A stretch of 64,000 nucleotides of DNA, from contig WBVU01000019.1 of NCBI GenBank assembly GCA_009192285.1, positions 1,013,182 to 1,077,181 of the forward strand. The letters run 5' to 3'. Position numbers and translations under genes: made by a program. The first letter of the stretch is position 1. Each line of letters starts with the position of its first letter. Origin of the DNA: Morchella semilibera. Its lineage: Eukaryota; Ascomycota; Pezizomycetes; Pezizales; Morchellaceae. This document shows positions 1 through 64,000 of the stretch, in pieces. Below the pieces are notes generated by a model. It searched no databases. It worked only from the letters and a program-made list of their open reading frames with translations, and was not told where the DNA came from.

Positions 1-30
1 AATTGCTACCACTAAAAACCACTACTTGAG

Positions 31-98
31 TGTCCCGGTGACTTAGCATCGAGTCCGGCAGTTTACTAGGCGAACCGCTGTTGTAATCTTTGGGATTA
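31..98 (+). mobile_element. Truncated LTR fragment
   Basis: Begins with TGTCCCGGTG and follows, with substitutions, the 5' end of the LTRs at 1461 and 3542 (the GCATCGA...CCG...GTAG...CGCT pattern). Similarity stops where a 137-bp MITE begins. It is a decayed piece of the same LTR family. Confidence 0.5.
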
Positions 99-235
99 CA
101 TCAGCAAACTAAACTTGTGACTGGAGTCTCCCAACAGTCTCCCGGGTCTCCTGAGAGTCTCCTGAGACCCCTGCATATTTTTTCAGTCTCCTGTGGCTCA
201 GGAGACATCAGGAGACAAATGAAGTCTTGCTGATG
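99..235 (+). mobile_element. 137-bp MITE, copy A
   Basis: The element opens with CATCAGCAAAC and closes with GTCTTGCTGATG, giving short terminal inverted repeats (CATCAGCAA/TTGCTGATG). The interior is built of repeated GTCTCC/GGAGAC blocks and can fold into a hairpin. Copies at 505, 4770 and 33210 (reversed, shortened) share ends and interior. Copies A, B and C are all exactly 137 bp. It has no coding capacity. Confidence 0.85.
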
Positions 236-425
236 CATCTGTGCATATGAAATTTTCATAATTGGTGTTATTCCATATGCTATTCACCGACTTCAAAGGT
301 TTTGTTTTTGTGTTGGCTGAAAGGAATAGCGTAATATATACTACTGGTCTATATCAAATACGTGAAGTAATATACATTCATTGATAGCAATTAATAATAG
401 TTTGTCAGTAATCTGAGTTAAAAAT

Positions 426-1191
426 ATGACGGAGTAACCCAACACAAAGTAGAAGATGACAATGATGATGCAGAAGGACTCGAGAAGCACAGACAGCACA
501 ACAACATCAGCAAATTCAACTTCTGACTGGAGTCTCCCAACAGTCTCCCAAGTCTCCTGAGAGTCTCCTGAGACTCCTGGATATTTTTTGATTCTTCTGA
601 GGTTCAGGAGACATTAGGAGACAAATGAAGTCTTGCTGATGAAGGACGCCAACGAAGGCAGAAGCCACATTGGTTAAGGACAAGTACAAATACCAACAAA
701 GGCAAAGGCAAAGGCAAAGGCAAAAAAGCGCAGGGTAGGAAAAGTGAGGACCGGATGAACCTCAACGAGAAGGATCAGAGGTACTATGGATTTCCTCTAC
801 AGAGGATCGAATCTTGGGTGCGAGGAACTATGGCTTAAAGATAGGACTATATTCCTATTTACCGAGATGAGATGAAGACGAGAAAGAGAGGAAAGAAAGA
901 AAGAACTAAGGAAAACATCTATCCCCGCTATTTAATATTTCTCCTTCACCAGTCCAATATGACTCACACATTAGCTTATAGAAACCTATAGAAATCTATT
1001 GCAACCACACCTCATATTCTTCCCCACCATTTCTTCTATTTACATTACCAATCCATTACGCCATCGAACATCCTAGAAACCAATGACAACACTCTCTCCT
1101 CAGCACACCCCTTCCTCGCTTAGCTTTACCTTAACATTCACAACAGCGCCCCGACTACTGAGCTCAGAACCGATGCCAAAATGCTGGGACA
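426..1191 (-). mobile_element. Solo LTR, reverse orientation, carrying a MITE
   Basis: The reverse complement matches the LTRs at 1461 and 3542 over their length: it starts TGTCCCAGC and ends in GGTTACTCCGTCATA. It contains the A/G-rich stretch GGCAAAGGCAAAGGC, the counterpart of the pyrimidine-rich GCCTTTGCC part of the other copies. A 137-bp MITE (505-641) interrupts it, so about 629 bp is LTR. No clear target duplication was found. No internal retrotransposon sequence is nearby, so this is a solo LTR. Any ORFs in it are incidental. Confidence 0.75.
505..641 (+). mobile_element. 137-bp MITE, copy B, nested in an LTR
   Basis: Same CATCAGCAA...TTGCTGATG ends and GTCTCC-rich interior as copy A. 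It is flanked by AA on both sides. Comparison with the uninterrupted LTR at 3542 shows it split the LTR, consistent with a 2-bp AA target duplication. Confidence 0.85.
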
Positions 1192-3128: not shown

Positions 3129-3236
3129 TCTACTTGCTGCTACAGGTGTCTCGCTTGCTGCTACAGGTGTTTTGCTTGCTCTTACAGGTGTCTCACTTGC
3201 TTCCACAAGTATTCCGCTTGTTGCTACAGATGTTTT
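3129..3236 (+). repeat. 21-bp minisatellite inside transposase relic
   Basis: About five tandem copies of a 21-bp unit close to CTTGCTGCTACAGGTGTCTCG, diverging along the array. They sit in frame between YNSNDL and FCNGWFEAF, where relatives have no such stretch, adding a repeated LAATGVS-like peptide. The array expanded within the transposase, before or after its death. Confidence 0.75.
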
Positions 3237-3541
3237 TCTGTTTTGCAACGGTTGGTTTGAGGCTTTTTTAACAGGTTTTCGTATTCCTTTGAAATGTATC
3301 ACCAAGAAAGCACAAGGCGTCCCTGAGGAGTACCAGAAATTGTTAATTGACTAGTTAAGGTTCAACCGCTGTAAACCACAACTCCGATCAGGTTTCTGGA
3401 TGAAAATTATTCTTAATAGAGCAATAAACCGATATCTTTTGAGCAACATATGCAATCTTGACGAGACTCCTCTCCGTTTGAATATCCTAGTGGACGTACC
3501 TATGATTTAGTGGGTTCAAGGACAGTTTAGGTGAAGGAAGA

Positions 3542-4769: not shown

Positions 4770-4906
4770 CATCAGCAAACTCAACTTGTGACTGGAGTCT
4801 CCCAAAAGTCTCCCAGGTCTCCTGAGAGTCTCCTGAGACCCCCGGATATTTTTTGAGTCTCCTGAGGCTCAGGAGACATCAGGAGACAAATGAAGTCTTG
4901 CTGATG
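4770..4906 (+). mobile_element. 137-bp MITE, copy C, with 2-bp TT target duplication
   Basis: Same family as 99-235. It lies inside the transposase relic between GGGCCTT and TTAAAC. Deleting the MITE and one TT restores a continuous reading frame (GSEDWA then LNIKGFAGIEIGDWR), so the target duplication is TT. It contains the near-perfect palindrome GTCTCCTGAG-G-CTCAGGAGAC. Confidence 0.9.
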
Positions 4907-11338: not shown

Positions 11339-12046
11339 CTAGCAACAGACATATATCAAAACGCCATAGCATAGTCCAACCTTCAACCAATTCAGGATTT
11401 CTTCCTGCTTCATGGTATCTATGCCAGCTGGCCCCCCAGAAATCCTTTCAAGGTCCTCCTTTTCAATACCCGTCGACGTGCCAGTCTGCCCTCCACAACC
11501 TTCGTAGCCTTCTCGATTGTTCTCTTCATCTCCCACCAGTACCTCCGGACAGCCGGCTCTCTCCAGACGTCCTTCTGACAGTACTCCACCTCCACTTGCG
11601 GGTAAGGTCTGGGGAGCTGCCTCGGCGATATCCTCCCCGCCGGGAGAATCTGGAAGCTCCTCCTGCAGAGGGTCGATTTCGTCCTCACCAATGTACTCGT
11701 CATCCGAAATATCCGAGCCACTGTCCGTGAGAGTAGCCTCCGCGATGTCCTCTTCATCATCCTTGTCCTCACTCTCGTACTCCCTCCAATCCCAACACGT
11801 CTTCCACCGGTTATTCGCCTCCAGAGCCATATTTCCCGCCTTCCGGCGAGAGAGAAATCTCAGCTTAACCTTCCGGTATAGTATAGCAAAAACCTGATCC
11901 CCTGCTGCTGTATAGTTGAGCTCTTGTCCGTTCTGGGTGGCTCGGGAGCCTCCAACTCCCGCAGCCACCGCTCCCCCGGTTCCAGCGGGTGCAACTAGAT
12001 TTCCCCTCCCACTCTGAGTCCGCCTCCTCGCCGCAGATTTAACCAT
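11339..12046 (-). CDS. Putative acidic protein, unrecognised (235 aa)
   Basis: One open frame of 235 codons on the minus strand, the longest unspliced ORF outside the gene island. The first 30 residues are basic and Gly/Ala-rich (VKSAARRRTQSGRG), then a region with KVKLRFLSRRK and WKTCWDWREYE. A strongly acidic stretch (ESEDKDDEEDIAEATLTDSG and onward, residues about 90-145) follows, with a Gly-rich tail. The final residues after ILNWLK look like read-through into an intron or 3' region. GC content is higher than in flanking sequence, supporting coding. Function unknown; it could be a gene, a gene fragment or chance. Confidence 0.35.
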   Translation of the reverse strand: MVKSAARRRTQSGRGNLVAPAGTGGAVAAGVGGSRATQNGQELNYTAAGDQVFAILYRKVKLRFLSRRKAGNMALEANNRWKTCWDWREYESEDKDDEEDIAEATLTDSGSDISDDEYIGEDEIDPLQEELPDSPGGEDIAEAAPQTLPASGGGVLSEGRLERAGCPEVLVGDEENNREGYEGCGGQTGTSTGIEKEDLERISGGPAGIDTMKQEEILNWLKVGLCYGVLIYVCC

Positions 12047-27342: not shown

Positions 27343-28633
27343 ATGGACAACGCAACCTTCCTGACAGCAACAATGAAAACAAAGGGTGGTGTTTTGAAGT
27401 CACCTCCTTACCTTAACACTGGACAAAAGAGGTCCGACTGCCTGAAACCACCACATAGCTCCGACATCATTAAGGATCAATTTGAGCCTTACAAAAGCCG
27501 GCTGCTGGATTCTACTAAGGCATTTACCTTGACTTCCGATCGCCTTTTGGAAAAAAATATCGACAAGTGGATGTCTCTATCTGCATCCATGAAGGAAGCC
27601 TGCGAACAGGCAAGACAGAGGGGTGAAGAGACTTTTAAGCAAATAATTGGCGATAAAGGTAAGTCTTTTATAAAATTCTTAATTAATCTTTTACTAATAC
27701 ATATCAGGGAGTCTTATTGAAGTGTTTTTTGACCTCGACGTATCTCTTCCACCAAACAAGCAAGGTACTCTTATTCAGAAATCACTACAAGAGATTGATG
27801 AAATAATTTCAGACTATACGCTTATTGGTATTCCGGAGACCCCTGGTTCCTTCTATATTGCTCTTGACGGAAAATACAAACGGATGTTTATTTATTTCAG
27901 CAAAGGGTACGAGATGGTTTATGGACCTACTATTGGTCAATGGGTGGTAGATTCTACTACTTATAATATTGAGGAATATTCCGCCATTCACCCCCCTAAT
28001 ATTCCTGGTCCTAAAGACAAAAGGCATCGTGATTACGAACATTGGCTTCTTAGTCACCCTCATCTTTGCTGGGCTCCATGGTCTAGAGCTGGCGTTTATC
28101 ATTGGGGATCATGGATGGAACAAGGTCACAACAAAAAGGGTTCTTGCATTACTAGTGACTCTGGTAATGTTCCTCTACACGTTAAACCAGTATTGATTGA
28201 TTTATTTCAATCCTTCGGAAATATCACCAGAGCTAAAAGGATCTTATTGGGAGCTGTTGATAAAGACGTTAGAGATTTCTGTCAAAAAATGATTGCTGAA
28301 TATCCTGCTAATAAGAAAATGTTTTGGGCAACGGATGAAAAAGAATGCTTTTCATTGAGAGCTTGCTTAGTCAACATCTTTACTGAACCTCATTATGATG
28401 GTGGTGATCTGGATGATGGTTGGGCGGTAATGTCACCTTTAGGGAGTTATCGCGGTGGAGAGCTCTGCATTAGGGAGATGAAAAGAAAGTTTATTTATCA
28501 ACCCGGCGGGGTTGGTTTTATTAGGGGTAGTAAGTTAGAGCATTGTACTAAAAGATGGGAGGGTCAAAGGTACTGTCTGGTTTCGACTGTACACGAAAGT
28601 TTGAGGAAGGAATATTTAAATAGTCAAAATTAG
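27343..28633 (+). CDS. TET/JBP-like 2-oxoglutarate/Fe(II) dioxygenase (413 aa)
   Basis: Two exons, 27343-27658 and 27708-28633 (stop TAG), joined over a 49-nt intron with GTAAGT donor, TACTAAT branch and CAG acceptor; the phases fit (a glycine codon is split). Residues 1-106 form a charged, probably helical N-terminal extension. The C-terminal half holds the double-stranded beta-helix core: H334-x-D336 in EPHYDGGD, then GWAVMSPLGSYRGGELC, PGGVGFIRGS, H384 in KLEHC, and R393 in EGQRYCLV followed by VHESL. H334, D336 and H384 would bind iron and R393 the 2-oxoglutarate. The pattern (GGELC...PG-V-F-RG--L-H...G-RY--V---HE) matches the TET/JBP-like oxygenases expanded in fungi, some of which oxidise 5-methylcytosine and are linked to transposons. 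Substrate here is unknown; a general 2OG oxygenase is the alternative. It looks intact and is the first gene of a co-oriented island with the helicase. Confidence 0.85.
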
Positions 28634-28881
28634 GTAGAGTCTTTGTAATGGCTTTAAATATAATTCCTATTCGAAATCATACATTATATCCCATATACTG
28701 AAGCTAATAATTAATCCAGTAGTTCAATTGGGTCAGGTCCTAGCCCCCAACAGCCTACCCTAGTTCCCCCTCAATTATGTCCTCAGGTTGGGAGACGCGG
28801 CCGTCACGACAATCTATAACCAAGTATTATAAGATCTAGATTTAACTAGGTATTATCATCCCCCTTAGGATATACAGATTA

Positions 28882-29021
28882 GACAACCTCACGGGGGTGT
28901 GGTCAACACGGGGGTATATTCCAAGATATGGAAACCAAACGAGGAGTCAATCATACATCAATTCGGAGTATTTAAAACCTACCGTACCCCCGTACTGACC
29001 ACACATCCTCGTGAAGTCGTC
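28882..29021 (+). mobile_element. 140-bp TA-flanked MITE, copy 1
   Basis: Imperfect inverted ends of about 35 bp: GACAACCTCACGGGGGTGTG leading to ACACGGGGGTA on the left, and TACCCCCGTACTGACCACAC to CGTGAAGTCGTC on the right. TA flanks both sides (28880-28881 and 29022-29023). A longer relative is at 30620-30860. The TA duplication points to mobilisation by a Tc1/mariner-type transposase. Confidence 0.75.
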
Positions 29022-29493
29022 TATCCCTCGGACGGATGAAAGTGGAAACCCTTGTTTACTTCTGTTGTTACCCTAACAAGCAATATAATTCCTTTACTCA
29101 GTGGTGCGCAGTCCAGGTCGCGAGTTTGATCACTTTCATTCATCCAAGGGATACAGCGGAAATTGTTAAGGAGGAGCTAAAGCGGCAGGTCAGCATTGCC
29201 GGCTCAAGGGGGGGGGGGGTAGCAATTGACACACATGAAAAGTGGTAACATGGCTTTTCCTTAAGACCAGCAAAGCATTTAGCATAAGCTACCTGTCGTC
29301 CCCATTTATTTCCAAATCTACATACCAACGTAGTCTTCCATAGGTTCCAAGCCTACCAATCCCCATATTTTGAGGAAGCCAGATTCCGGGGATCCTCACA
29401 GCTTTTCGACTCAAGGTAGGCTAAAACCTCCCTATATTATTCACATTAAACGATCTAATATGTGTTAAAATTAACCACGCACTTACAGCCACA
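29022..29493. other. Intergenic, upstream of coiled-coil gene
   Basis: Contains a G12 run (29208-29219) and short ORFs without support. The 60 bases before 29494 are A/C-rich and suit a leader. Confidence 0.4.
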
Positions 29494-29862
29494 ATGCCCA
29501 CCTCACTCAAGAAACAAAACAAAACCAATGGCCGGATTCACATTGATGAAGGGCCAACCCACCATATCATCCGTGCTCTGGCCGGTAGTCAGCGGAAACC
29601 TATTTCTGTCAGAAAACGATTCAAGGTTGTGTTTTCAAAATTATGCACTCTACGGAAGCAAAACATGAATTTGGAAAAGAAAAACTCGAAACTCCGCCAG
29701 CACAAAGCCCTATATGCCGAAAGGGTCAAGATGTATCAACAGGAACTTGATAGACGCGACAAGAACCTACGCAGTGCAAGAGCAACCGCACAAATATACC
29801 GGGACCTTTATTTCAGGTTACAAGGGTCTATGTGTCCTGACTTTGCTGGTAAAAGAAAATAA
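29494..29862 (+). CDS. Small basic coiled-coil protein (122 aa)
   Basis: Single-exon frame with a good start context (CACAATGCC) and stop at 29860-29862. The first 50 residues are basic and polar (TSLKKQNKTNGRIHIDEG, then SVRKRFK). Residues about 54-105 form a likely coiled coil (LRKQNMNLEKKNSKLRQHK, VKMYQQELDRRDKNLRSARA) with leucine/methionine heptad spacing. Not recognised as a named family. Composition differs from the surrounding chance ORFs, which favours a real gene. It sits between the oxygenase and the helicase on the same strand; a DNA-binding or scaffold role would be a guess. Confidence 0.55.
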   Translation: MPTSLKKQNKTNGRIHIDEGPTHHIIRALAGSQRKPISVRKRFKVVFSKLCTLRKQNMNLEKKNSKLRQHKALYAERVKMYQQELDRRDKNLRSARATAQIYRDLYFRLQGSMCPDFAGKRK

Positions 29863-30619
29863 CTTGCCATTTATTCATCCTTAGCTAGTCATGTACTGAC
29901 AAAACCAGCGGAAAATCTAGTTAATTCCGAATTTCTATGAACTATGGTTGGGATGCCTTGAACTGGAGTAGTTTTGGGGGTCAACTTCAACCGCTAATGA
30001 CTTTCCGTAACCACACACACCCTAATATATTTTTCTCTCTGTTATTCCATAGTCCTCTACAATCTGACAGAGCCGGATCAACTCTACCCTCTGCTGTAGC
30101 GGAGCTATCGATCTTCTAAAGCTGAGTTCCTGGCGGGAGGCATGTGCTTATGAATTAGCGGAGGTTCAAGGACAAAAGCTTTCCTATCTGTTCAAATACA
30201 AACCTATGTTATCCCGTAATGACACATCACCCTCTGATAATAGAAGAAAGAGAGACCGAGGTTGGCGTGATTAGGGAAACGCTGTGTATCCCTTAGACGG
30301 TTAGTCTAGGTTGAAACATTAAACTAACCGGATAACCGTTCTATGGACGCATTAGGGCGTATTGGCCAACAACCTCTGAGTCTAAATATTTAGTTCTTGG
30401 CAACCGGTTTTTTGTGTGGATAGCTCACCAAGGGCTCGAAATTTGAACAAATATGAGTGTGGCCAACACGCTCTATTGAATGTTTATACTAGCATTGGGT
30501 AACTTAACACACGCTTGAGACGTTCCAGCCTCAATGCGAGAATACACATCTGCGGCGTTGATTATAGAACGATCACTAGATATAGTTAGTTTTATATTTA
30601 GATTCGGACTCACCATCTA
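29863..30619. other. Intergenic
   Basis: No convincing ORF, RNA or repeat seen. Confidence 0.4.
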
Positions 30620-30860
30620 GACTCGCTCACGGGTGTGTGGTGACCACGGGTGCGTGGGGATCTTTCTGCAGATCTGTCTCAACATGGTGAGTACCAAAAT
30701 CAATGTGCAAAAATTCATAATTCAAGACCATGAACTACCCAAACCTCATACGCTATTTCGCATCTCGTTTTTATAAGTTTAGCTGTCCTGTGGAAGGAAA
30801 CAAAGTAAAAATTCCCACGCACCCGTGGTCGCCACATGTGCACACACCCGTGAGCGACTC
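30620..30860 (+). mobile_element. 241-bp TA-flanked MITE, copy 2
   Basis: Inverted ends of roughly 45 bp: GACTCGCTCACGGGTGTGTG then ACCACGGGTGCGTGGG on the left, CCCACGCACCCGTGGTCGCC to CACCCGTGAGCGACTC on the right. TA on both sides (30618-30619, 30861-30862). It shares the CTCACGGG-GTGTGG end core with 28882-29021 but is longer and better preserved. Confidence 0.8.
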
Positions 30861-31927
30861 TAAAGGATAGTCTGTATTCATACTGTACCAAAGGTCTCTG
30901 TGCACAGCGTTGAAAATGTCATACATGCTACATCCGGCTAGTACACGCTCATCTTTTTGGTGCCGAGTTTCCCTCTCCCCTGCTTGGCTTAAACTCCGGT
31001 ACTCAACTGCTATTGAATACACAGAAAAACCCCGCCAAGGCTACCCTTTTGTATTACCTACATGCAATAGTGGCCGGTCCGGGAACGCCAAGAATTTACG
31101 AGTACAGTGGAACCTCTATGGTAGCGTGTTATTGGCCCCAAACAAGACCTTCTATCATTATTGGAGTCTTTATCCACACCACTCGAAGGTTGAAAGATGG
31201 GTTCCGAGGCAAAATGACCGGGGGTCGAATTCACAAGCCACTTGGGGGAACATAATGGGATTCAGGGTTAGGTATTTTCATGCAATGGGCTCTTAGCAAC
31301 CGCTGCACCCACCTTGCAGAGCCTCATGTATGGCCAACATGTAACGTTGTTCTACCACAAACCTCCATCTCCATCTCACGCATTACATCAATACTAACCT
31401 CAACTCCTAACGCAGAAACTCGGAAATCTATCTCCGGCCAGGAATTATCGGCTTAACGATTGGTTGAACGGTGTTGATGTATTTTGATCGAGTAATGGTT
31501 CGGAAACTGACCTGTTATCTTAGGATATACGACATGATCTTGACACAGTCGCTATCGATCAAAGCAATCATGGCCCTTAAAAACAACACGACGCATCAAT
31601 TCCCACTCCCTAACGAAAATTATTCTGACCACCTACATTCCTCTACCTCAGTCCACATACACAACTTATTTTCTGAACACCTACGATAGAAGCCGAAGTA
31701 GCATACAAACATACGCAGTTTATCGCCGGGGCGTTAATGACACTTACCACTCTTCAAAAGAACATTATGCCCTTCCAAAATCGACACCATTTCTTTTATT
31801 CTCGTATACCTGTCCGCCAAATAGCAGTAATTTCTTTGGCCACCTATATGTCCCCCGATAGTATTTAATCCTCCGTTGAGCACCCTTCCTTCCTCATCAC
31901 ATCAGTTCCAACTGTGCTTTCTTCACG
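30861..31927. other. Intergenic and helicase promoter
   Basis: 30905-30960 partly repeats 27105-27160 (shared AGCGTTGAAA, TCATAC, GGCTAG). The last 70 bases are pyrimidine-rich with a TATTTAAT box at about 31862-31869, 60 bases before the start codon, plausibly the promoter of the helicase gene. Confidence 0.45.
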
Positions 31928-34900
31928 ATGTCTGCCAACTACAGCTGCACCAGATGCCATCAAATCTTTGAAACCGCTCCGGCTTTAAATAACCACAAAA
32001 GGGTATGTTATCCATATCTTATCCGGCCTTTCTAACTCTTATATAGACACACCAAACCACTGTTATCACCAAGAGCCTTGATAACCATGAGGTTACAATC
32101 TTTCGAGATCCTGTTTCCGACCTCTTCCGCTGCATTTGCGGTACCGCGACCTCCCGAGCTGAGGCCATGAGACGACATTTATCCAGCAATAATCGCATTC
32201 ATACACCCTCTGCCGACCTTACACCACCTGAACTTAATCAGCCCTTATCTACTGCGCAAGCTCTTTCCAATCACTGTTCTAATGAGACTCGTTCCTCTCA
32301 GTCCGAGTACCCCATTTCCAATAGCTCCTTAACCGATTATCAGTCTCACTTAACCGTACGTGGGGGGCCCACACAACCCTCCGCCACTACCGCAAGCAAT
32401 ATTCAGGTAACATCCATGCCCATCTCCGACCCCGGGACCGACTTTCCACCTACGGCCAGCTCTTCAACTAGCCAAGACGAACAGGATTACTCCAGTGATT
32501 ATGAGTCTGGTCGTCAATCCCTTGAGAAGCTTTTTAATCTCAGGTACCTTGATGAGCATGGCGTTATAGTTTGTCTTCAGTGCCTAACAGGTAAGATCTG
32601 GGAGAGTTGCATATTGAACTCTTACTAATATTTTCTAGGAGTCAACCCCTTACATCTTGTATCTCATCTACAGAAACATGATTTCACGGGCCCAATTCAA
32701 ACCACAGTCAACAATTACTTGAGTATGGTCGATGCTAAGCCATTAGCTGATGTACGTAACCCACCGCCAAACCAACCTGCAATCTCCTTACTTAAGGTAT
32801 ATAATGGTTTCATTTGCCACCGTTGCCAATATGCGTGCGGAGCTGATATGACGATGAGAAAACATTCAATGAAATGTAATCCTGACCAAGGTCCAAGTCT
32901 TTATGGACGGTCTGCCGTGCAGTCATTCTTCTCTGGCGTTGGAAAGACATTCTTTGCAGTACAACGTGTCCATGTTGGACTTCAACCTCACGATCAATTG
33001 ACTGAAGAATTAATGAATAATGCTCATCAATTATATGAGACCTACCATGAACAGAGAAAGGAAAACACTCTGCTCGGGAATTATAGTGCCCCTGAACAGT
33101 CACCATATCTTGAGCGCACAGGCTGGTTGTCACACTTTGCCGGTACTGATCTTCTTAAGGTTCGTTATCTTCCCTGTTTGTGGCATCTCCAACTTGTCGC
33201 ATCTTCCAGCATCAGCAAGACTTCATTTGTCTCCTGGTGTCTCCTGAGCCTCGGGAGACTCTCAGGAGACCCGGGAGACTGTTGGGAGACTCCAGCCACA
33301 AGTCGAGTTTGCTGATGATGTACTAATTTTCTTAAGGTTCGCGCCCATGCCTACAATTTACCGTCAAAGGCACAAACAACCATAGTCATAGAAGCAGTTC
33401 ATAAAGTCTTCAGTCTGTGCCGTGAACATTTCAGAAAAACTCATATTGGAACTAGGAGGTGGATGTCCTCTGTTAGCCCAGTTGAGTGGGCGCCCAAACC
33501 GTTTGATCTTGTCAAGGCCAAAACAACTATTGTTTATGAAAAGTGTTGGGTAGCTATGATTATCTATATCATCAGCATCAATGGAGGCGGCGATGCCCCT
33601 GCCCTTACTGAAGCGCATTCCAAACTATTTTTCTTGACGGATGAACAGCTAAAGTGGATCACATCTATCAACTCCCAACTCTCAACAGCTTCGGTTGATG
33701 ATATTGAGCCCCTAATCTTTGGCCTAAGCGTTTCACTTATCTGCCAGCATTTCCAAGAAGAAGGAGAAGCGTCTTGTTTAATGAGTCATACACTATCTGT
33801 TCTTGGCATTGATCTCAATTCAGGCAGCTTCCGGACAGCTTCTCAATATTCCAAGGATTTGGCTGCGATACTCTATCTCTCCCGACTCATAATAATGAGA
33901 CACGCCCATGAAGAGTCCATAGAGCCCTTCGCTTTGCAGACGTATGATATATTTGTTGGGATACACCACGCATATCTCACTCCCACAGGTCTGTCTCCTG
34001 TCGCTGAAGTCATTAACCTCTTGGCATGGACAAGGAAGTTTGGAGCCGACGAAACAAAGCTTCCGGATATTATGTGGAATATCGATGAGCAAGATGGGGA
34101 GCATTCTCTCATATATAGAGGCGATATTATATATGTTGATCGATTTCGTACCATGCTGATGAAACAGGTTGAAAAAGCCAAACTCATCCTTCAGGAAGAC
34201 TTTGGATTATCTTCAGATCATCTTACTCGAACAAAAATCCGTCAAATCAAGGACGATCTCACAGAACATGATACTGGATACAGCTTTTTAACTGACCCTA
34301 GAAATGAAAAAATCTTTAATACGGAAGGCAGAAATCCGCTTGATCTCATATTTGAAAACAGCGCCCTTCAACGTCAATTATTGAGGGTTGTTGACTCGAA
34401 GATATTATGGCTTACCCATGGAGTACGTCAATTGATCAAGTCATCTGAGCGATTTTTGGAGCATATTTTATTATTACTACACGGAACAGGAGGACAGCCA
34501 GCAAGAGCTACTGAAATAATGCAATGCCGTTGGGCAAATTCCGTCTTCGCGCATAGAAACATGTTTATCTGCAATGGATATTTGATGTTCGTCACATCAT
34601 ACTATAAGAACATAAAAACTATCGGTAAGTACATGTCTCTAACCTTAATTCATATTGATGTCACTAATACCCCTAGGGTGGTCTAAATTTATCCCTAGGT
34701 TTGCTCACCCGGATGTGGCTCCCCTCTTTATCATATACCTCCACCGTGTGTTACCGCTTATTCAATTCCTTGCACATGTCAACGGTCTTGATATGGCCCG
34801 TGATCTTGACTTGGATACGACTCCTAAATACTACATCTTCGCTGATCATTTTGAGCAACAATGGGACTCAACAAAGCTTACGGTGGTACTTGCCCGAGAG

Positions 34901-37455
34901 AGTTCTCTGTTTTTCCAAGATACTAGTATCGGTACAATTGACTATCGCCATGTTGTTATCTTGATTAGTCGGCGCTATATGCGGCAGCCATTTGAAGATG
35001 AAGAAGATGAAGACGAGAATGATCTTCAAGCATCTCATTGTTCCGCTACTGCTGATAGAATCTATGGTGTCCGTTCCGATATTCTCAAAAACTTAAGCGA
35101 ACACTCTATCTCCATTTTCAGTCACATATCTCTTCTTTGGCATCGTTTTCTGCAGTCCCCCCAGTCATCGAAGTATTGGCAAAAACAATCAGGCTCATTT
35201 ATACAGCATTTACCCCCCGATCTTGAACAATCCCCTGCTAAAAGACAAAGAATTAGAGAGTTCTCAGCCGATATCGAAAATAGACCTCTGTCACCACCGG
35301 CTACCGCGCCCGTTACAAGCATTCCCGCAGATCCATCTCAGTCTAGAATTGTGATTGAAGTAAACGAGGACCCCCTAACTATTGATGATAGAGCCAGTCT
35401 TATGATACGCATGCTTCATGGTCCGACTGCCCGATACAAAACACTCGAGCAGAAGCAAGGCTTGCACCATATTCTTCAGGGAACGACACCTCTCTTGGTT
35501 ATCCTACCTACTGGCGGAGGAAAATCTCTTCTCTTTGAAGCTCCAGCTTGTGAAAGGTCTCGAGGTGTCAGTGTTGTTGTTGTGCCTTTCATCGCATTAA
35601 GGCAAGATTTAGCAGCGCGCGCTACCGCTGCTGGAATTACTTCGCAGGTTTGGGCAGGACATCTTGAAAGAGACACCCCGTTATTATTTATCACTGTCGA
35701 GGCGGCAACCCAGAAGACGTTTCATCATTATATGAGAACTCTAATATGCAGAGGGAAACTTTCTAGAATTTATTTCGATGAGTGCCATATGATAATTACA
35801 GAATCAGGCTTCCGTGAAGCATACCAGCAACTATCATGGTTTACCAAACTAGATATACAAATTGTTTTTCTAACGGCAACATTACCCTTCTACATGGTTG
35901 ACCATCTCAAGACTTCGATGCTCCTTGATGATGACATATCTATAATTCGTGCAAATACTAACCGACCCAACATAGCGTACAAGGTTGAGTTTGTTACTTA
36001 TAGTACACAGATGACAAGGATTTTAGAGATACAGCGAGATTGGAAGGGTACCAACAATGATCGAGTCCTTATATATACACGATCTATATTAGATTGTCGG
36101 CTATTATCTGCAGCCTTGGGGTGTGGCATGTATTACGCCGGTAAGTATTCTTGTATCATTTTTTAAAGTTCAAATTCTTACATTCTCAGATCATGCCGAC
36201 AAGGAAAGAGATATGAGAAATTGGGTAACAGGAAACTCATCTCCGTTCCTAGTCTCAACCACTGCCTTGACAGCAGGCATTGATATATCTGCTATTCGAC
36301 TCGTCATCCACTACAACGCTCCTTACAACTTTATTGACTTTGCGCAATCAAGTGGAAGAGCTGGCCGTGATGGAAAACCTGCGGTCTCACTATGCGTCTT
36401 ATCTTCGCTAAACAGTTTTTCTCAAAGCGAGGCAAACCAACAAAACGTCATAGCTCTTAAAGAGTATCTATCGACCAAGAATTGCAGACGCATAGCTCTC
36501 AACCGCTTTTTTGATGGTCAGGAAGCGAAATGCAATGCCGAACAAGATCAATTATGTGATATTTGCGATGCTCAGTCGCAACCGGTAACCCCAGCTTCTA
36601 CCGCATCATTGTTCAGCTCTTCTCCCGCGACAACTCCATTTTACACACCTAATGGCTCTCCAATCCCGCACAGCTCTTCTCTGATTCGCCAACAACAGGC
36701 ACCATCTCAACTGTCACATACTACTCCACAACTTGTAGAGCCCAGCAGCTCACATTCAGGATTCACTCCTTCTTATATGTCTGCCCCATATATTCCCCCG
36801 CAAGGTAACATACCGCGCCCAGACCCAGTCGTCCCACAGACCCCCGGATATCATGAATCGAACTGGCTGCGGGTACAAAAGGTTCTTCCTGTTATACAGG
36901 CATCTTGCCGGTTCTGTTGGGTGGACAGAGCTGATCCGAACATCAATTTATTATCACATTCTACTGAAGATTGTCGTCGCTATTTGCATCTACAATGCGA
37001 CATTATAAAGTACATTGTCTATTCACTCCTCTTATATATTATATTTCTAATTAGAAAAATAGTTGCACATGGACTGAATATAGGCAATGGCGCAACACTA
37101 TCAAATTCCAACAATATTCTGCTTGTTTTTCTTGCGGTTTACCCCAAAAGATTTGTCCGCATGGGGTACCATGCACTTACGATCGACACATCATCTCCGC
37201 CACAGCATTTATGGCCCAGTTCCATGAACCATTGAAAACCCGAGTCTGTGAGCTGATGGGAGTAAGCGTGGAACAGTTCACCTCTGCAGACTACATGGCA
37301 TGGGTCGGACTTTTGGTCCCTCGCTATCTAGGCACAAAGGCCCCAAACATGATGAGAGTATTTGTTGAGTCTATTAGACTCGTTGAAGTATGTTTTACGC
37401 CCTCCTTTCAAGCCCAATCGCTAACCTATTCTAGGATTCTAACTCTCTACCCTAA
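31928..37455 (+). CDS. TLH: Telomere-linked OrsD zinc-finger/RecQ helicase (1685 aa)
   Basis: Eight exons join in frame: 31928-32002, 32047-32590, 32639-33159, 33337-34624, 34677-36140, 36190-37009, 37063-37387, 37435-37455 (stop TAA). Introns are 44-53 nt with CTAAC/CTAAT branch sites, except the third (177 nt), which hosts a MITE. N-terminal zinc fingers: a C2H2 finger C7-C10-H23-H27 split by intron 1, a degenerate one (C54, C56, H69), and C201-x2-C204 to HLVSHLQKH split by intron 2. The OrsD (DUF3505) region follows (GFICHRCQYACGADMT, C266/C269). The RecQ core has motif I PTGGGKS (K1092), motif II DECH (D1177-H1180), motif III FLTATLP, and motifs V-VI TTALTAGIDIS and SGRAGRDG (from S1352), then cysteines of a RecQ-type zinc site (CNAEQDQLCDIC). 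A C-terminal Cys-rich part reads CFSCGLPQKIC. Family members lie next to telomeres in many fungi and unwind DNA 3' to 5'; a role in chromosome-end recombination is proposed. All catalytic motifs are present, so it may be functional. Confidence 0.9.
33210..33317 (-). mobile_element. 137-bp-family MITE, copy D, inside helicase intron 3
   Basis: Reverse-orientation member of the family at 99-235: CATCAGCAAGACTTCATTTG on the left, GAGTTTGCTGATG on the right. It is shortened to 108 bp by loss of the central TATTTTTT part. It lies wholly inside intron 3 (33160-33336): donor GTTCGT before it, branch TACTAAT and acceptor TTCTTAAG after it. Without the MITE the intron would be about 69 nt, near normal. 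Confidence 0.85.
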
Positions 37456-56890: not shown

Positions 56891-59800
56891 AGGCAGGGAA
56901 GAATATCAATTCGGTGTCACCAAGTTAGGCACCACAGTGGGTGCAGGAGTGCTTTTGCTTGAGGCGGGAGTTGCTTTCGGTGTCCGCTCGCACAGGTTAG
57001 CACGTCGAAGACGTGCGAAAGCAACCGTTAGTTGGTCAGGGGGTTAGGGGGTCAGGGGTTAGTGCACAGAGCAAAAACGAGGGGCAGGGACAAGACGTCG
57101 ATTGGGTGTCGGCAAGTTGGTCACCACAGTGGGTGCAGGAGTGCTTTTGCTTGAGGCGGGAGTTGCTTTCGGTGTCCGCTCGCACAGGTTAGCACGTCGA
57201 AGACGTGCGAAAGCAACCGTTAGTTGGTCAGGGGGTTAGGGGTCAGGGGTTAGTGCACAGAGCAAAAACGAGGGGCAGGGACAAGACGTCGATTGGGTGT
57301 CGGCAAGTTGGTCACCACAGTGGGTGCAGGAGTGCTTTTGCTTGAGGCGGGAGTTGCTTTCGGTGTCCGCTCGCACAGGTTAGCACGTCGAAGACGTGCG
57401 AAAGCAACCGTTAGTTGGTCAGGGGGTTAGGGGGTCAGGGGTTAGTGCACAGAGCAAAAACGAGGGGCAGGGACAAGACGTCGATTGGGTGTCGGCAAGT
57501 TGGTCACCACAGTGGGTGCAGGAGTGCTTTTGCTTGAGGCGGGAGTTGCTTTCGGTGTCCGCTCGCACAGGTTAGCACGTCGAAGACGTGCGAAAGCAAC
57601 CGTTAGTTGGTCAGGGGGTTAGGGGGTCAGGGGTTAGTGCACAGAGCAAAAACGAGGGGCAGGGACAAGACGTCGATTGGGTGTCGGCAAGTTGGTCACC
57701 ACAGTGGGTGCAGGAGTGCTTTTGCTTGAGGCGGGAGTTGCTTTCGGTGTCCGCTCGCACAGGTTAGCACGTCGAAGACGTGCGAAAGCAACCGTTAGTT
57801 GGTCAGGGGGTTAGGGGGTCAGGGGTTAGTGCACAGAGCAAAAACGAGGGGCAGGGACAAGACGTCGATTGGGTGTCGGCAAGTTGGTCACCACAGTGGG
57901 TGCAGGAGTGCTTTTGCTTGAGGCGGGAGTTGCTTTCGGTGTCCGCTCGCACAGGTTAGCACGTCGAAGACGTGCGAAAGCAACCGTTAGTTGGTCAGGG
58001 GGTTAGGGGGTCAGGGGTTAGTGCACAGAGCAAAAACGAGGGGCAGGGACAAGACGTCGATTGGGTGTCGGCAAGTTGGTCACCACAGTGGGTGCAGGAG
58101 TGCTTTTGCTTGAGGCGGGAGTTGCTTTCGGTGTCCGCTCGCACAGGTTAGCACGTCGAAGACGTGCGAAAGCAACCGTTAGTTGGTCAGGGGGTTAGGG
58201 GGTCAGGGGTTAGTGCACAGAGCAAAAACGAGGGGCAGGGACAAGACGTCGATTGGGTGTCGGCAAGTTGGTCACCACAGTGGGTGCAGGAGTGCTTTTG
58301 CTTGAGGCGGGAGTTGCTTTCGGTGTCCGCTCGCACAGGTTAGCACGTCGAAGACGTGCGAAAGCAACCGTTAGTTGGTCAGGGGGTTAGGGGGTCAGGG
58401 GTTAGTGCACAGAGCAAAAACGAGGGGCAGGGACAAGACGTCGATTGGGTGTCGGCAAGTTGGTCACCACAGTGGGTGCAGGAGTGCTTTTGCTTGAGGC
58501 GGGAGTTGCTTTCGGTGTCCGCTCGCACAGGTTAGCACGTCGAAGACGTGCGAAAGCAACCGTTAGTTGGTCAGGGGGTTAGGGGGTCAGGGGTTAGTGC
58601 ACAGAGCAAAAACGAGGGGCAGGGACAAGACGTCGATTGGGTGTCGGCAAGTTGGTCACCACAGTGGGTGCAGGAGTGCTTTTGCTTGAGGCGGGAGTTG
58701 CTTTCGGTGTCCGCTCGCACAGGTTAGCACGTCGAAGACGTGCGAAAGCAACCGTTAGTTGGTCAGGGGGTTAGGGGGTCAGGGGTTAGTGCACAGAGCA
58801 AAAACGAGGGGCAGGGACAAGACGTCGATTGGGTGTCGGCAAGTTGGTCACCACAGTGGGTGCAGGAGTGCTTTTGCTTGAGGCGGGAGTTGCTTTTCGG
58901 TGTCCGCTCGCACAGGTTAGCACGTCGAAGACGTGCGAAAGCAACCGTTAGTTGGTCAGGGGGTTAGGGGGTCAGGGGTTAGTGCACAGAGCAAAAACGA
59001 GGGGCAGGGACAAGACGTCGATTGGGTGTCGGCAAGTTGGTCACCACAGTGGGTGCAGGAGTGCTTTTGCTTGAGGCGGGAGTTGCTTTCGGTGTCCGCT
59101 CGCACAGGTTAGCACGTCGAAGACGTGCGAAAGCAACCGTTAGTTGGTCAGGGGGTTAGGGGGTCAGGGGTTAGTGCACAGAGCAAAAACGAGGGGCAGG
59201 GACAAGACGTCGATTGGGTGTCGGCAAGTTGGTCACCACAGTGGGTGCAGGAGTGCTTTTGCTTGAGGCGGGAGTTGCTTTCGGTGTCCGCTCGCACAGG
59301 TTAGCACGTCGAAGACGTGCGAAAGCAACCGTTAGTTGGTCAGGGGGTTAGGGGGTCAGGGGTTAGTGCACAGAGCAAAAACGAGGGCAGGGACAAGACG
59401 TCGATTGGGTGTCGGCAAGTTGGTCACCACAGTGGGTGCAGGAGTGCTTTTGCTTGAGGCGGGAGTTGCTTTCGGTGTCCGCTCGCACAGGTTAGCACGT
59501 CGAAGACGTGCGAAAGCAACCGTTAGTTGGTCAGGGGGTTAGGGGGTCAGGGGTTAGTGCACAGAGCAAAAACGAGGGGCAGGGACAAGACGTCGATTGG
59601 GTGTCGGCAAGTTGGTCACCACAGTGGGTGCAGGAGTGCTTTTGCTTGAGGCGGGAGTTGCTTTCGGTGTCCGCTCGCACAGGTTAGCACGTCGAAGACG
59701 TGCGAAAGCAACCGTTAGTTGGTCAGGGGGTTAGGGGGTCAGGGGTTAGTGCACAGAGCAAAAACGAGGGGCAGGGACAAGACGTCGATTGGGTGTCGGC

Positions 59801-62800
59801 AAGTTGGTCACCACAGTGGGTGCAGGAGTGCTTTTGCTTGAGGCGGGAGTTGCTTTCGGTGTCCGCTCGCACAGGTTAGCACGTCGAAGACGTGCGAAAG
59901 CAACCGTTAGTTGGTCAGGGGGTTAGGGGGTCAGGGGTTAGTGCACAGAGCAAAAACGAGGGGCAGGGACAAGACGTCGATTGGGTGTCGGCAAGTTGGT
60001 CACCACAGTGGGTGCAGGAGTGCTTTTGCTTGAGGCGGGAGTTGCTTTCGGTGTCCGCTCGCACAGGTTAGCACGTCGAAGACGTGCGAAAGCAACCGTT
60101 AGTTGGTCAGGGGGTTAGGGGGTCAGGGGTTAGTGCACAGAGCAAAAACGAGGGGCAGGGACAAGACGTCGATTGGGTGTCGGCAAGTTGGTCACCACAG
60201 TGGGTGCAGGAGTGCTTTTGCTTGAGGCGGGAGTTGCTTTCGGTGTCCGCTCGCACAGGTTAGCACGTCGAAGACGTGCGAAAGCAACCGTTAGTTGGTC
60301 AGGGGGTTAGGGGGTCAGGGGTTAGTGCACAGAGCAAAAACGAGGGGCAGGGACAAGACGTCGATTGGGTGTCGGCAAGTTGGTCACCACAGTGGGTGCA
60401 GGAGTGCTTTTGCTTGAGGCGGGAGTTGCTTTCGGTGTCCGCTCGCACAGGTTAGCACGTCGAAGACGTGCGAAAGCAACCGTTAGTTGGTCAGGGGGTT
60501 AGGGGGTCAGGGGTTAGTGCACAGAGCAAAAACGAGGGGCAGGGACAAGACGTCGATTGGGTGTCGGCAAGTTGGTCACCACAGTGGGTGCAGGAGTGCT
60601 TTTGCTTGAGGCGGGAGTTGCTTTCGGTGTCCGCTCGCACAGGTTAGCACGTCGAAGACGTGCGAAAGCAACCGTTAGTTGGTCAGGGGGTTAGGGGGTC
60701 AGGGGTTAGTGCACAGAGCAAAAACGAGGGGCAGGGACAAGACGTCGATTGGGTGTCGGCAAGTTGGTCACCACAGTGGGTGCAGGAGTGCTTTTGCTTG
60801 AGGCGGGAGTTGCTTTCGGTGTCCGCTCGCACAGGTTAGCACGTCGAAGACGTGCGAAAGCAACCGTTAGTTGGTCAGGGGGTTAGGGGGTCAGGGGTTA
60901 GTGCACAGAGCAAAAACGAGGGGCAGGGACAAGACGTCGATTGGGTGTCGGCAAGTTGGTCACCACAGTGGGTGCAGGAGTGCTTTTGCTTGAGGCGGGA
61001 GTTGCTTTCGGTGTCCGCTCGCACAGGTTAGCACGTCGAAGACGTGCGAAAGCAACCGTTAGTTGGTCAGGGGGTTAGGGGGTCAGGGGTTAGTGCACAG
61101 AGCAAAAACGAGGGGCAGGGACAAGACGTCGATTGGGTGTCGGCAAGTTGGTCACCACAGTGGGTGCAGGAGTGCTTTTGCTTGAGGCGGGAGTTGCTTT
61201 CGGTGTCCGCTCGCACAGGTTAGCACGTCGAAGACGTGCGAAAGCAACCGTTAGTTGGTCAGGGGGTTAGGGGGTCAGGGGTTAGTGCACAGAGCAAAAA
61301 CGAGGGGCAGGGACAAGACGTCGATTGGGTGTCGGCAAGTTGGTCACCACAGTGGGTGCAGGAGTGCTTTTGCTTGAGGCGGGAGTTGCTTTCGGTGTCC
61401 GCTCGCACAGGTTAGCACGTCGAAGACGTGCGAAAGCAACCGTTAGTTGGTCAGGGGGTTAGGGGGTCAGGGGTTAGTGCACAGAGCAAAAACGAGGGGC
61501 AGGGACAAGACGTCGATTGGGTGTCGGCAAGTTGGTCACCACAGTGGGTGCAGGAGTGCTTTTGCTTGAGGCGGGAGTTGCTTTCGGTGTCCGCTCGCAC
61601 AGGTTAGCACGTCGAAGACGTGCGAAAGCAACCGTTAGTTGGTCAGGGGGTTAGGGGGTCAGGGGTTAGTGCACAGAGCAAAAAACGAGGGGCAGGGACA
61701 AGACGTCGATTGGGTGTCGGCAAGTTGGTCACCACAGTGGGTGCAGGAGTGCTTTTGCTTGAGGCGGGAGTTGCTTTCGGTGTCCGCTCGCACAGGTTAG
61801 CACGTCGAAGACGTGCGAAAGCAACCGTTAGTTGGTCAGGGGGTTAGGGGGTCAGGGGTTAGTGCACAGAGCAAAAACGAGGGGCAGGGACAAGACGTCG
61901 ATTGGGTGTCGGCAAGTTGGTCACCACAGTGGGTGCAGGAGTGCTTTTGCTTGAGGCGGGAGTTGCTTTCGGTGTCCGCTCGCACAGGTTAGCACGTCGA
62001 AGACGTGCGAAAGCAACCGTTAGTTGGTCAGGGGTTAGGGGGTCAGGGGTTAGTGCACAGAGCAAAAACGAGGGGCAGGGACAAGACGTCGATTGGGTGT
62101 CGGCAAGTTGGTCACCACAGTGGGTGCAGGAGTGCTTTTGCTTGAGGCGGGAGTTGCTTTCGGTGTCCGCTCGCACAGGTTAGCACGTCGAAGACGTGCG
62201 AAAGCAACCGTTAGTTGGTCAGGGGGTTAGGGGTCAGGGGTTAGTGCACAGAGCAAAAACGAGGGGCAGGGACAAGACGTCGATTGGGTGTCGGCAAGTT
62301 GGTCACCACAGTGGGTGCAGGAGTGCTTTTGCTTGAGGCGGGAGTTGCTTTCGGTGTCCGCTCGCACAGGTTAGCACGTCGAAGACGTGCGAAAGCAACC
62401 GTTAGTTGGTCAGGGGGTTAGGGGGTCAGGGGTTAGTGCACAGAGCAAAAACGAGGGGCAGGGACAAGACGTCGATTGGGTGTCGGCAAGTTGGTCACCA
62501 CAGTGGGTGCAGGAGTGCTTTTGCTTGAGGCGGGAGTTGCTTTCGGTGTCCGCTCGCACAGGTTAGCACGTCGAAGACGTGCGAAAGCAACCGTTAGTTG
62601 GTCAGGGGGTTAGGGGGTCAGGGGTTAGTGCACAGAGCAAAAACGAGGGGCAGGGACAAGACGTCGATTGGGTGTCGGCAAGTTGGTCACCACAGTGGGT
62701 GCAGGAGTGCTTTTGCTTGAGGCGGGGAGTTGCTTTTCGGTGTCCGCTCGCACAGGTTAGCACGTCGAAGACGTGCGAAAGCAACCGTTAGTTGGTCAGG

Positions 62801-64000
62801 GGGTTAGGGGGTCAGGGGTTAGTGCACAGAGCAAAAACGAGGGGCAGGGACAAGACGTCGATTGGGTGTCGGCAAGTTGGTCACCACAGTGGGTGCAGGA
62901 GTGCTTTTGCTTGAGGCGGGAGTTGCTTTCGGTGTCCGCTCGCACAGGTTAGCACGTCGAAGACGTGCGAAAGCAACCGTTAGTTTGGTCAGGGGGTTAG
63001 GGGGTCAGGGGTTAGTGCACAGAGCAAAAACGAGGGGCAGGGACAAGACGTCGATTGGGTGTCGGCAAGTTGGTCACCACAGTGGGTGCAGGAGTGCTTT
63101 TGCTTGAGGCGGGAGTTGCTTTCGGTGTCCGCTCGCACAGGTTAGCACGTCGAAGACGTGCGAAAGCAACCGTTAGTTGGTCAGGGGGTTAGGGGGTCAG
63201 GGGTTAGTGCACAGAGCAAAAACGAGGGGCAGGGACAAGACGTCGATTGGGTGTCGGCAAGTTGGTCACCACAGTGGGTTGCAGGAGTGCTTTTGCTTGA
63301 GGCGGGAGTTGCTTTCGGTGTCCGCTCGCACAGGTTAGCACGTCGAAGACGTGCGAAAGCAACCGTTAGTTGGTCAGGGGGTTAGGGGGTCAGGGGTTAG
63401 TGCACAGAGCAAAAACGAGGGGCAGGGACAAGACGTCGATTGGGGTGTCGGCAAGTTGGTCACCACAGTGGGTGCAGGAGTGCTTTTTGCTTGAGGCGGG
63501 AGTTGCTTTCGGTGTCCGCTCGCACAGGTTAGCACGTCGAAGACGTGCGAAAGCAACCGTTAGTTGGTCAGGGGGTTAGGGGGTCCAGGGGTTAGTGCAC
63601 AGAGCAAAAACGAGGGGCAGGGACAAGACGTCGATTGGGTGTCGGCAAGTTGGTCACCACAGTGGGTGCAGGAGTGCTTTTGCTTGAGGCGGGTAGTTGC
63701 TTTCGGTGTCCGCTCGCACAGGTTAGCACGTCGAAGACGTGCGAAAGCAACCGTTAGTTGGTCAGGTTAGGGGGTCAGGGGTTAGTGCACAGAGCAAAAA
63801 ACGAGGGGCAGGGACAAGACGTCGATTGGGTGTCGGCAAGTTGGTCACCACAGTGGGTGCAGGAGTGCTTTTGCTTGAGGCGGAGTTGCTTTCGGTGTCC
63901 GCTCGCACAGGTTAGCACGTCGAAGACGTGCGAAAGCAACCGTTAGTTGGTCAGGGGGTTAGGGGGTCAGGGGTTAGTGCACAGAGCAAAAACGGGGGGC
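56891..64000 (+). repeat. Subtelomeric 192-bp satellite, about 37 copies
   Basis: After one diverged unit (56891-56935), a 192-bp unit repeats nearly unchanged to the window end (for example GTGCAGGAGTGCTTTTGC at 56941, 57133, 57324, 57516). Each unit contains GGTCAGGGGGTTAGGGGG then TCAGGGGTTAG, which embeds the telomere-like GGTTAGGG. It also has two overlapping perfect inverted repeats: GTTGCTTTCG with CGAAAGCAAC (56970-56979/57016-57025 in the first unit) and GCACGTC-GAA-GACGTGC. Single-base indels are rare up to about 62.7 kb and frequent after it. The 60-90-codon ORFs in it are satellite shadows. It continues past the window. Confidence 0.95.

Follow-up and report, generated by a model that had tools for sequence, protein, structure and literature searches.

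Why should a gene for a TET/JBP-like oxygenase lie beside a telomere-linked helicase near the end of a Morchella semilibera contig? Telomere-linked helicases, such as the subtelomeric tlh of S. pombe, have been known since the 1990s, and we know of no agreed function for them. The window analysed here is the final 64 kb of contig C16 (1,077,181 bases), in which the initial annotation had noted these two genes and a small one between them as a possible subtelomeric module, as cargo of a large mobile element or as chance neighbours.

Genes of the window and the end of contig C16

All three genes are intact and co-oriented on the + strand, with exactly the borders first given. The oxygenase gene (27343..28633, +; 413 aa) has two exons (27343-27658 and 27708-28633) separated by a single 49-nt GT-AG intron and contains no internal stops. 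The small coiled-coil-looking ORF (29494..29862, +; 122 aa) has itself as its sole genome match at E ≤ 0.001. The telomere-linked-type helicase gene (31928..37455, +) comprises 8 exons and 7 GT-AG introns, encodes 1685 aa with no internal stop and carries a dispersed-repeat copy (33209..33317) within its intron 33160-33336. The MITE reported from the gap between oxygenase and helicase was found as a MITE-like dispersed repeat at about 29043..29166, upstream of the coiled-coil ORF (38 of 44 repeat matches fall there), and the gap from the oxygenase stop to the helicase start measures 3.3 kb rather than 2.9 kb. It was broadly right to call the trio the only dense coding stretch: outside it, the window holds three ORFs of at least 200 aa, at 2554-3354 (+; sub-threshold Pfam matches of helix-turn-helix/Tc5 type, best E 0.005), 6798-7694 (-; no Pfam match) and 11339-12046 (-; a sub-threshold Pfam match). 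No tRNA (bacterial settings) or Rfam features were found in the window.

A 192-bp satellite with G-rich telomere-like stretches (56909..64000, +) starts 19.4 kb beyond the helicase stop, in keeping with the roughly 20 kb first estimated, and runs to the last base; all 37 genome matches reported for its unit fall at this end of C16. It is terminal in the sense of the assembly only, because the contig stops within the satellite, and the telomere repeat is not reached at this end. At the opposite edge, positions 1..9 (+) are the tip of a decayed second copy that lies nearly all to the left of the window, where a 5' piece of the oxygenase (-697..9) adjoins an inverted helicase piece (-1378..-696). 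A strong RIP-like CpA signature was not seen in the decayed copy, which has an excess of C>T/G>A changes alone (114 versus 51 reverse transitions).

Sequence comparisons identify the putative product of the first gene as a TET/JBP-type 2OG-Fe(II) oxygenase. On its own it matches CcTet in the PDB at E 3e-4, and its profile (A3) matches four PDB sequences at E ≤ 0.1, all four of them TET proteins (CcTet at 5e-8, Naegleria TET at 4e-4); the Pfam Tet_JBP model scores it at 18.2-18.8 bits and does not reach the cut-off of 34.9. A conserved R binds 2OG in TET/JBP enzymes. In alignment with CcTet, the motifs HYD, LEHC and GQRYC provide the H-x-D, the distal H and this R, the iron ligands of the triad being assigned from PMC12730594. 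PE-type enzymes have H-x-E in place of H-x-D (Kojima 2025, PMC12730594) and AG-type (CcTET-like) enzymes are defined by the equivalents of Gly331 and Asp337 (PMC12730594); the window oxygenase, with HYD and with D and A at the latter two positions of the CcTet alignment, is of neither type. Compared with three paralogues (dN 0.27-0.33, dS saturated), it is, as judged from these substitutions, under long-term constraint. A single-sequence AlphaFold model of the oxygenase was useless (mean pLDDT 32).

In the helicase, Pfam finds OrsD (6e-15), Helicase_C (1.8e-13) and DEAD (1.8e-12), with RecQ_Zn_bind below cut-off, and the order along the protein is OrsD region, recombinase-like block, DEAD/Helicase_C core and RecQ zinc region. 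With OrsD, a DEAD/Helicase_C core and multicopy subtelomeric occurrence, it is a telomere-linked RecQ helicase.

Helicases and oxygenases are paired above chance

The helicase match extends from the OrsD region through to the core at six loci, one in the window (C16) and one each on C6, C4, C3, C2 and C1; exon-by-exon checking of the gene model covered the window helicase only, and C2 has a stop inside its match. A gene for a 2OG-Fe(II) oxygenase of the TET/JBP or JmjC class lies within 5 kb of five of the six, within 2.5 kb of four and within 15 kb of all. The pairing exceeds chance, is tail to tail at four of the six loci as read from ORF ends, accommodates two oxygenase classes in one slot and is biased towards subtelomeres. 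The tail-to-tail gaps are 0.3 kb at C4 and 1.2 kb at C6, where the neighbour is of TET/JBP type, and 0.9 kb at C3 and 0.5 kb at C2, where it is JmjC-type (KDM2/7-like). The TET/JBP-type oxygenase of C16 is the exception, lying upstream of the helicase in the same orientation, and the C1 helicase is 13.6 kb from its nearest oxygenase, which is not convergent with it. An interior relic on C20, consisting of a decayed helicase start and a convergent decayed JmjC gene, repeats the helicase-JmjC pair.

What survives of the initial proposal is a pair rather than a trio. A subtelomeric module gains support from the oxygenases within 5 kb at five of six loci and from the five of six helicases that are in the outermost 60 kb of a contig; the oxygenase neighbour recurs, but in two of the five cases it is JmjC-type and not TET/JBP. 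The order and orientation of the window were not found at the other five loci, the four adjacent pairs there being convergent, and a fixed trio is further contradicted by the closest paralogues of the window oxygenase, on C5 and C11, neither of which has a helicase match nearby. Oxygenase homologues lacking helicase neighbours were what the initial annotation had named as refuting evidence, and they count here against its narrow version.

The neighbours at C2 and C3 appear to be JmjC oxygenases by profile comparison: all 12 PDB matches of their profile (A2) at E ≤ 1 are KDM2/KDM7/PHF8 proteins (best 9e-5), and the HxD motif is HVD, formed across an intron. Single-sequence support is poor, in that a search with the C3 ORF by itself puts lectins at the top (0.0026) and JmjC proteins only at 0.5, the Pfam JmjC model gives 0.033 for the C3 neighbour and nothing for that of C2, and the second half of the latter alone has three matches, all JmjC, at best 0.12.

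P values for the pairing are post hoc, because the JmjC class was brought in once the loci had been inspected, and with the window excluded, four of five helicase loci have an oxygenase at P 1.2e-7 under a uniform null, or at P 4.5e-4 (46 ends) or 2.2e-3 (30 ends) when the null is restricted to 60-kb ends. TET/JBP genes alone, again excluding the window, are found at two of five loci (P 0.012-0.027, subtelomeric null). When six fragments (C16-left, C20:1483030, C20:3983949, C23:2443298, C4:549992 and C1:1177682) are added, 7 of 12 helicase-like loci have a TET/JBP or JmjC gene within 5 kb (P 4.9e-11, uniform); the weak core matches C1:254323, C1:978968 and C18:506689 were judged to be other helicases and not counted. 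The oxygenase loci, merged by hand and including fragments, number at least 24 for TET/JBP and at least 20 for JmjC, totals that are lower bounds because the searches score best candidates only and in which the near-identical contig pairs C9/C10 and C21/C22 count twice.

A shared address could by itself bring such genes together, as subtelomeres gather multicopy, fast-moving families (helicases, TET, JmjC) that would then be neighbours with no functional link. Of the at least 44 TET/JBP and JmjC loci, at least 18 are no more than 60 kb from known contig ends, zones that together cover about 5% of the genome, and end-located oxygenases at C14, C9/C10, C21, C7 and the C5 end have no helicase match nearby. 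However, conditioning on the subtelomere still leaves P at 7e-5 to 5e-4 for five of six loci within 5 kb and at 4e-4 to 2e-3 for four of six within 2.5 kb, and the convergent arrangement repeats, also in the interior relic on C20. We consider this explanation somewhat unlikely. The one interior helicase, on C1, has an interstitial telomere array about 23 kb away. The helicases are only about 30-46% identical to one another and so give no sign of recent bursts.

The recombinase-like block and the search for element boundaries

Between OrsD and RecQ, all six helicases share a conserved block that resembles tyrosine recombinases, in the window at 34504..35065 (+), from the first Arg (aa 770) to the Tyr (aa 939) and including the intron 34625-34676. 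The recombinase-like residues R, K, R-H, H and Y are invariant in all six and the H-to-Y spacing is 9, as in XerD (the C4 row was read by eye), but none of the six has the first H of HxxR. Searched against the PDB, the block profile gave two matches at E ≤ 10, the better being Integrase 3nkh (E 0.02, in register). With hhalign, comparison with six E. coli recombinases gave E 0.056 for the whole block and 0.011 when trimmed, at a probability of 1-4%, against 0.38-0.53 for three unrelated control profiles; the score exceeded 100 of 100 shuffles, and global mode fails. No recombinase match to the blocks was found in Pfam, PHROGs or NCBIfam, the last of which returned an unrelated glycosyltransferase (7e-4) for one of the six. 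The helicase itself may carry a recombinase (DNA-joining) domain, with weak support from databases.

This block lends something to the earlier suggestion that the genes are cargo of a mobile element, but the flanks fetched around the six helicase loci showed neither common terminal repeats nor target duplications, and mobility is for that reason inferred. An inverted repeat at C4 (2,415 bp, 99.9%) was rejected as an element terminus: its inner end cuts the 5' coding region of the helicase, no flanking duplication was seen by eye and no such repeat was found at the other loci. Likewise, a 142-bp sequence that the C6 and window oxygenases share on their upstream side was discarded as an att site, being a dispersed repeat with 17 matches. 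Coiled-coil-looking ORFs were seen by eye upstream at three of the six helicase loci, with unconvincing similarity, and no like ORF was noticed upstream at C1, C4 or C6, against a conserved third component. In 500 heptad-preserving shuffles the fractions reaching the observed scores of the ORF pairs were 0.032, 0.496 and 0.012, and homology across loci is unproven.

A possible anti-silencing module and its relatives

Our preferred reading, to which we give an even chance, is that helicase and 2OG oxygenase form a recurring and mostly subtelomeric pair with one representative in the window, the pair being an element-like module with an anti-silencing oxygenase. Such a module would consist of a large OrsD - tyrosine-recombinase-like - RecQ helicase and a TET/JBP or JmjC 2OG-Fe(II) oxygenase. 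The helicase protein would recognise, then recombine or unwind, chromosome-end DNA, and its action would spread or maintain the module. In a silenced subtelomere, the TET oxygenase is predicted to oxidise 5mC and the JmjC oxygenase to demethylate histone lysine, which would keep the module expressed. In the manner proposed for TET-carrying DNA transposons, the oxygenase would act as an interchangeable accessory against silencing, but joined in this case to a telomere-linked helicase. Because helicase and eraser are paired and the helicase has a possible recombinase domain, these could be telomere-loving mobile elements with their own anti-silencing enzyme. More tentatively, and we think rather doubtfully, telomere-linked helicases might be fused tyrosine-recombinase/RecQ mobilisers of an unrecognised class of chromosome-end element, each with an interchangeable eraser (TET/JBP for DNA, JmjC for histones). 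Together, the recombinase-like block and the repeatedly recruited methylation eraser suggest a testable idea, that of self-preserving chromosome-end elements opposing subtelomeric silencing. If true, the sharing of one slot by two unrelated oxygenase classes would be convergent recruitment and a strong hint of function.

Work by Iyer in 2014 reportedly underlies the study of TET-carrying fungal DNA transposons. In these TET+ elements a TET/JBP gene accompanies a DNA-processing protein and an anti-silencing role has been proposed (Kojima 2025, PMC12730594). The partner there is a DDE or Helitron transposase, whereas here it is an OrsD-RecQ helicase, and the window oxygenase differs from theirs in having H-x-D, not the PE-type H-x-E, and in lacking the Asp337 equivalent of AG-type CcTET. 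As TET genes ride many fungal DNA transposons (PMC12730594) and the subfamily of the window oxygenase is dispersed in the genome, the gene could be a passenger from one that landed near the helicase. This is very improbable, given that none of three other ORFs next to the oxygenase that reach 110 aa (26264, 26454 and 30910) has a transposase match in Pfam at E ≤ 0.1, a search that a decayed or shorter transposase could escape, and that the JmjC neighbours would go unexplained.

It is also improbable that the pair is a host telomere-maintenance module, with a helicase for recombination-based end maintenance and an oxygenase that opens subtelomeric chromatin for the benefit of the host. The intact window genes and the long-term constraint on the oxygenase agree with this, and telomere-linked helicases of other fungi are discussed as end-maintenance or survivor-related in the portions of PMC10532341 and PMC4522978 drawn on here, but interior and decayed copies, varied oxygenases in the slot and the recombinase-like block fit an element better.

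For the element-like pair, the portions of three bodies of literature drawn on here offer partial parallels. Fungal TLH helicases (Ustilago UTASa/UTASb, Agaricus bisporus var. burnettii RecQ) are multicopy and subtelomeric with a RecQ-type core, and OrsD is noted for UTASb (PMC10532341, PMC7473861); the window helicase is alike in all four respects, whereas the oxygenase partner and the tyrosine-recombinase-like block found here go without mention in those portions. Starship elements combine DUF3435 tyrosine-recombinase captains with cargo (PMC12134995, in the part drawn on), a similar idea of recombinase plus cargo, but here none of the six blocks matches DUF3435, no boundaries were found and the recombinase-like block is fused to the helicase. 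In Mycosphaerella graminicola, the portion of PMC4522978 drawn on describes not such a pairing but a repeat family confined to subtelomeres, in zones where RecQ genes are also present; the family carries a DNA methyltransferase domain in place of the oxygenase seen here. In both fungi a DNA-methylation enzyme is amplified in RecQ-holding subtelomeres.

Helicase loci and their oxygenase neighbours

The genome searched, probably fungal judging by its gene content and intron size, comprised 56.8 Mb in 23 contigs, with the window as the terminal 64 kb of contig C16. Its oxygenase gene (27343-28633, 413 aa after GT-AG splicing) and its telomere-linked-type helicase gene (31928-37455, 8 exons with GT-AG introns, 1685 aa) contain no internal stops. 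The helicase has OrsD (6e-15), DEAD (1.8e-12) and Helicase_C (1.8e-13) domains; both OrsD and a RecQ-like helicase have been reported from Ustilago chromosome ends (PMC10532341). Matches running from OrsD through the helicase core were found at six loci (C16, C6, C4, C3, C2 and C1), five of which lie no more than 60 kb from a contig end; the interior sixth, on C1, lies ~23 kb from an interstitial telomere-repeat array. The telomere repeat is the 10-mer TTAGTTAGGG, for which a 30-mer query gave 251 matches versus 0 for the reversed control. Among the matches listed, which cover C1 to C5 only, arrays are placed at the C1-C5 contig ends and interstitially at C1:1462166, C1:4005228, C1:5770041 and C2:4063791.

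On C6 and C4, a TET/JBP-type gene is convergent with the helicase; measured between ORF ends, the distance is ~1.2 kb on C6 and ~0.3 kb on C4. The C6 TET/JBP domain scores 53.7 bits, above the Pfam cut-off; that of C4 scores 14.5 bits, under the cut-off, and is aligned by the oxygenase profile A3 at E 8e-7, motif residues included. C3 and C2 have another kind of convergent neighbour (~0.9 and ~0.5 kb away), which reads D-x-H-V-D once the exons are joined over the intron. All 12 PDB sequences matched at E≤1 by a profile of these two neighbours belong to KDM2/KDM7/PHF8 (best 9e-5). Searches with single sequences speak against a JmjC identity: the C3 ORF gave lectins at the top (0.0026) and JmjC proteins at ~0.5, the second half of the C2 neighbour gave JmjC proteins in 3 of 3 matches (best 0.12), and Pfam JmjC was sub-threshold for C3 and without a match for C2. 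We call these neighbours JmjC-type oxygenases. The closest JmjC gene on C1 lies 13.6 kb from the helicase in tandem orientation, and C4 has a further JmjC gene at 16 kb, plus a JmjC fragment 3 kb upstream. The interior of C20 holds a truncated helicase start (E 1e-17); convergent with it, at a distance of 0.1 kb by ORF ends and 0.6 kb by matches, is a JmjC gene carrying in-frame stops.

Taken together, a TET/JBP- or JmjC-type gene lies within 2.5 kb of the helicase at 4 of 6 loci, within 5 kb at 5 of 6 and within 15 kb at all six. With the discovery locus left out, the count of 4 of 5 has P 1.2e-7 under uniform placement and, with everything confined to 60-kb ends, P 4.5e-4 (46 ends) or 2.2e-3 (30 ends), values that overstate the case somewhat because the JmjC class was added after inspection. 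Also without the window, the TET/JBP type alone gives 2 of 5 (P 0.012-0.027, subtelomeric) and the JmjC type alone 3 of 5, including one fragment (P 0.003-0.008). The initial annotation had grouped oxygenase, coiled-coil protein and helicase as one subtelomeric island; this exact trio does not recur at the other five loci, coiled-coil-looking ORFs being seen upstream only at C16, C3 and C2, with no convincing mutual similarity.

The C4 pair is enclosed by an inverted repeat (C4:2677083-2679497 and 2690987-2693401; 2,415 bp, 99.9% identical) that ends within the helicase coding sequence. Features match at near-identical coordinates between C9 and C10, C21 and C22, and C12 and C13, as if two haplotypes were both kept in the assembly.

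The window oxygenase and its paralogues

A single-sequence search matched the window oxygenase to CcTet (E 3e-4), with the H-x-D, distal H and R all aligned, and the four PDB sequences reached at E≤0.1 by the five-sequence profile A3 (window, C11, C7, C21 and C6) were all TET enzymes. Because its Pfam Tet_JBP score is under the cut-off, the protein is regarded as a divergent TET/JBP member. According to PMC12730594, PE-type TET/JBP proteins are marked by H-x-E, and Gly331 and Asp337 are features of CcTET. The PE-type class was ruled out for the window oxygenase, which has H-x-D rather than H-x-E, and its alignment to CcTet shows no equivalent of Asp337. An Asp is kept 5 positions past the first iron His, where CcTET has Gly331. 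In conventional TETs this position reads 5mC, and PMC12730594 agrees with this.

Compared with three paralogues, the window oxygenase has dN 0.27-0.33 and saturated dS. Two of the three carry an in-frame stop, H-x-D is altered in the paralogue at C5:1367833, and the C11 paralogue (L012, C11:879252-880034) has an open frame and is probably catalytically dead, since both iron-ligand histidines are lost. Decay therefore also occurs in the oxygenase family. At the end of C5, a broken window-type copy (L013, C5:1876391-1878688) borders directly on the telomere repeats.

A recombinase-like block in the helicase

An alignment of the six helicases from OrsD to the helicase core contains invariant P-A-R-x-x-E, K, F-I-P-R-F, R-H, H and Y, the last two spaced 9 residues apart (in the window protein, R aa 770, K 804, R-H 900-901, H 930 and Y 939). 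The catalytic residues of XerD (R148, K172, R247, H270 and Y279) have the same order and the same last spacing. A profile of the block gave two PDB matches at E≤10, the top one, with E 0.02, being an integrase whose alignment falls on the R-H box. With hhalign, the first Arg box aligned to six E. coli recombinases with a score of 23.3, versus a maximum of 19.5 for 100 column shuffles and 11.7-14.6 for three unrelated profiles; against a recombinase, the hhalign probability was only 1-4%, and global alignment fails. Also against it, none of the six blocks has the first His of HxxR, and Pfam, PHROGs and NCBIfam returned no recombinase match to the block (one unrelated NCBIfam match, 7e-4). On balance, a tyrosine recombinase-like domain inside the helicase is somewhat more likely than not.

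Proposed role of the pair and minor features

The most economical reading is that helicase and oxygenase form an element-like pair. The recombinase-helicase protein would act on chromosome ends, and the oxygenase would take off silencing marks (5mC in the case of TET, methyl groups on histones in the case of JmjC), which would let the pair stay expressed in silenced subtelomeres; the anti-silencing idea is taken from Kojima 2025 (PMC12730594). The strongest functional hint is the occupation of one slot by two unrelated erasers. No termini, target duplications or recent copies were found around the helicase loci, and mobility of the pair is something we infer. In the library searched, no paper was found that joins TET, dioxygenase and telomere-linked helicase, and among the papers listed on tyrosine recombinases, TLH, OrsD, Cryptons, RecQ and subtelomeres, no title or abstract opening presents such a combination. 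The papers listed as naming both JmjC and a telomere-linked helicase were heterochromatin papers, mostly on fission yeast, or a review. Within the limits of this search, the single parts are of known kinds and their combination looks new.

Between oxygenase and helicase lie a MITE-like repeat, with 38 of 44 matches of the genome search falling there, and a coiled-coil-looking ORF of 122 aa whose sole genome match is itself. A 192-bp satellite (56909-64000) closes C16, and all 37 of its reported matches lie at this contig end; its unit contains G-rich telomere-like stretches with the strand sense of right-end telomeres. A dispersed repeat of ~140 bp occurs at 98-237, 504-644, 4770-4906 and 33209-33317, the last within the third helicase intron. 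The ORF at 2554-3354 (266 aa) has sub-threshold helix-turn-helix matches of the Tc5/CENP-B type and is perhaps a transposase remnant. Left of the window, a 5' piece of an oxygenase is adjoined by a decayed, inverted helicase piece. In the decayed copy, C>T/G>A changes outnumber the reverse transitions (114 versus 51, with the direction of change assumed), which is compatible with decay of methylated DNA.
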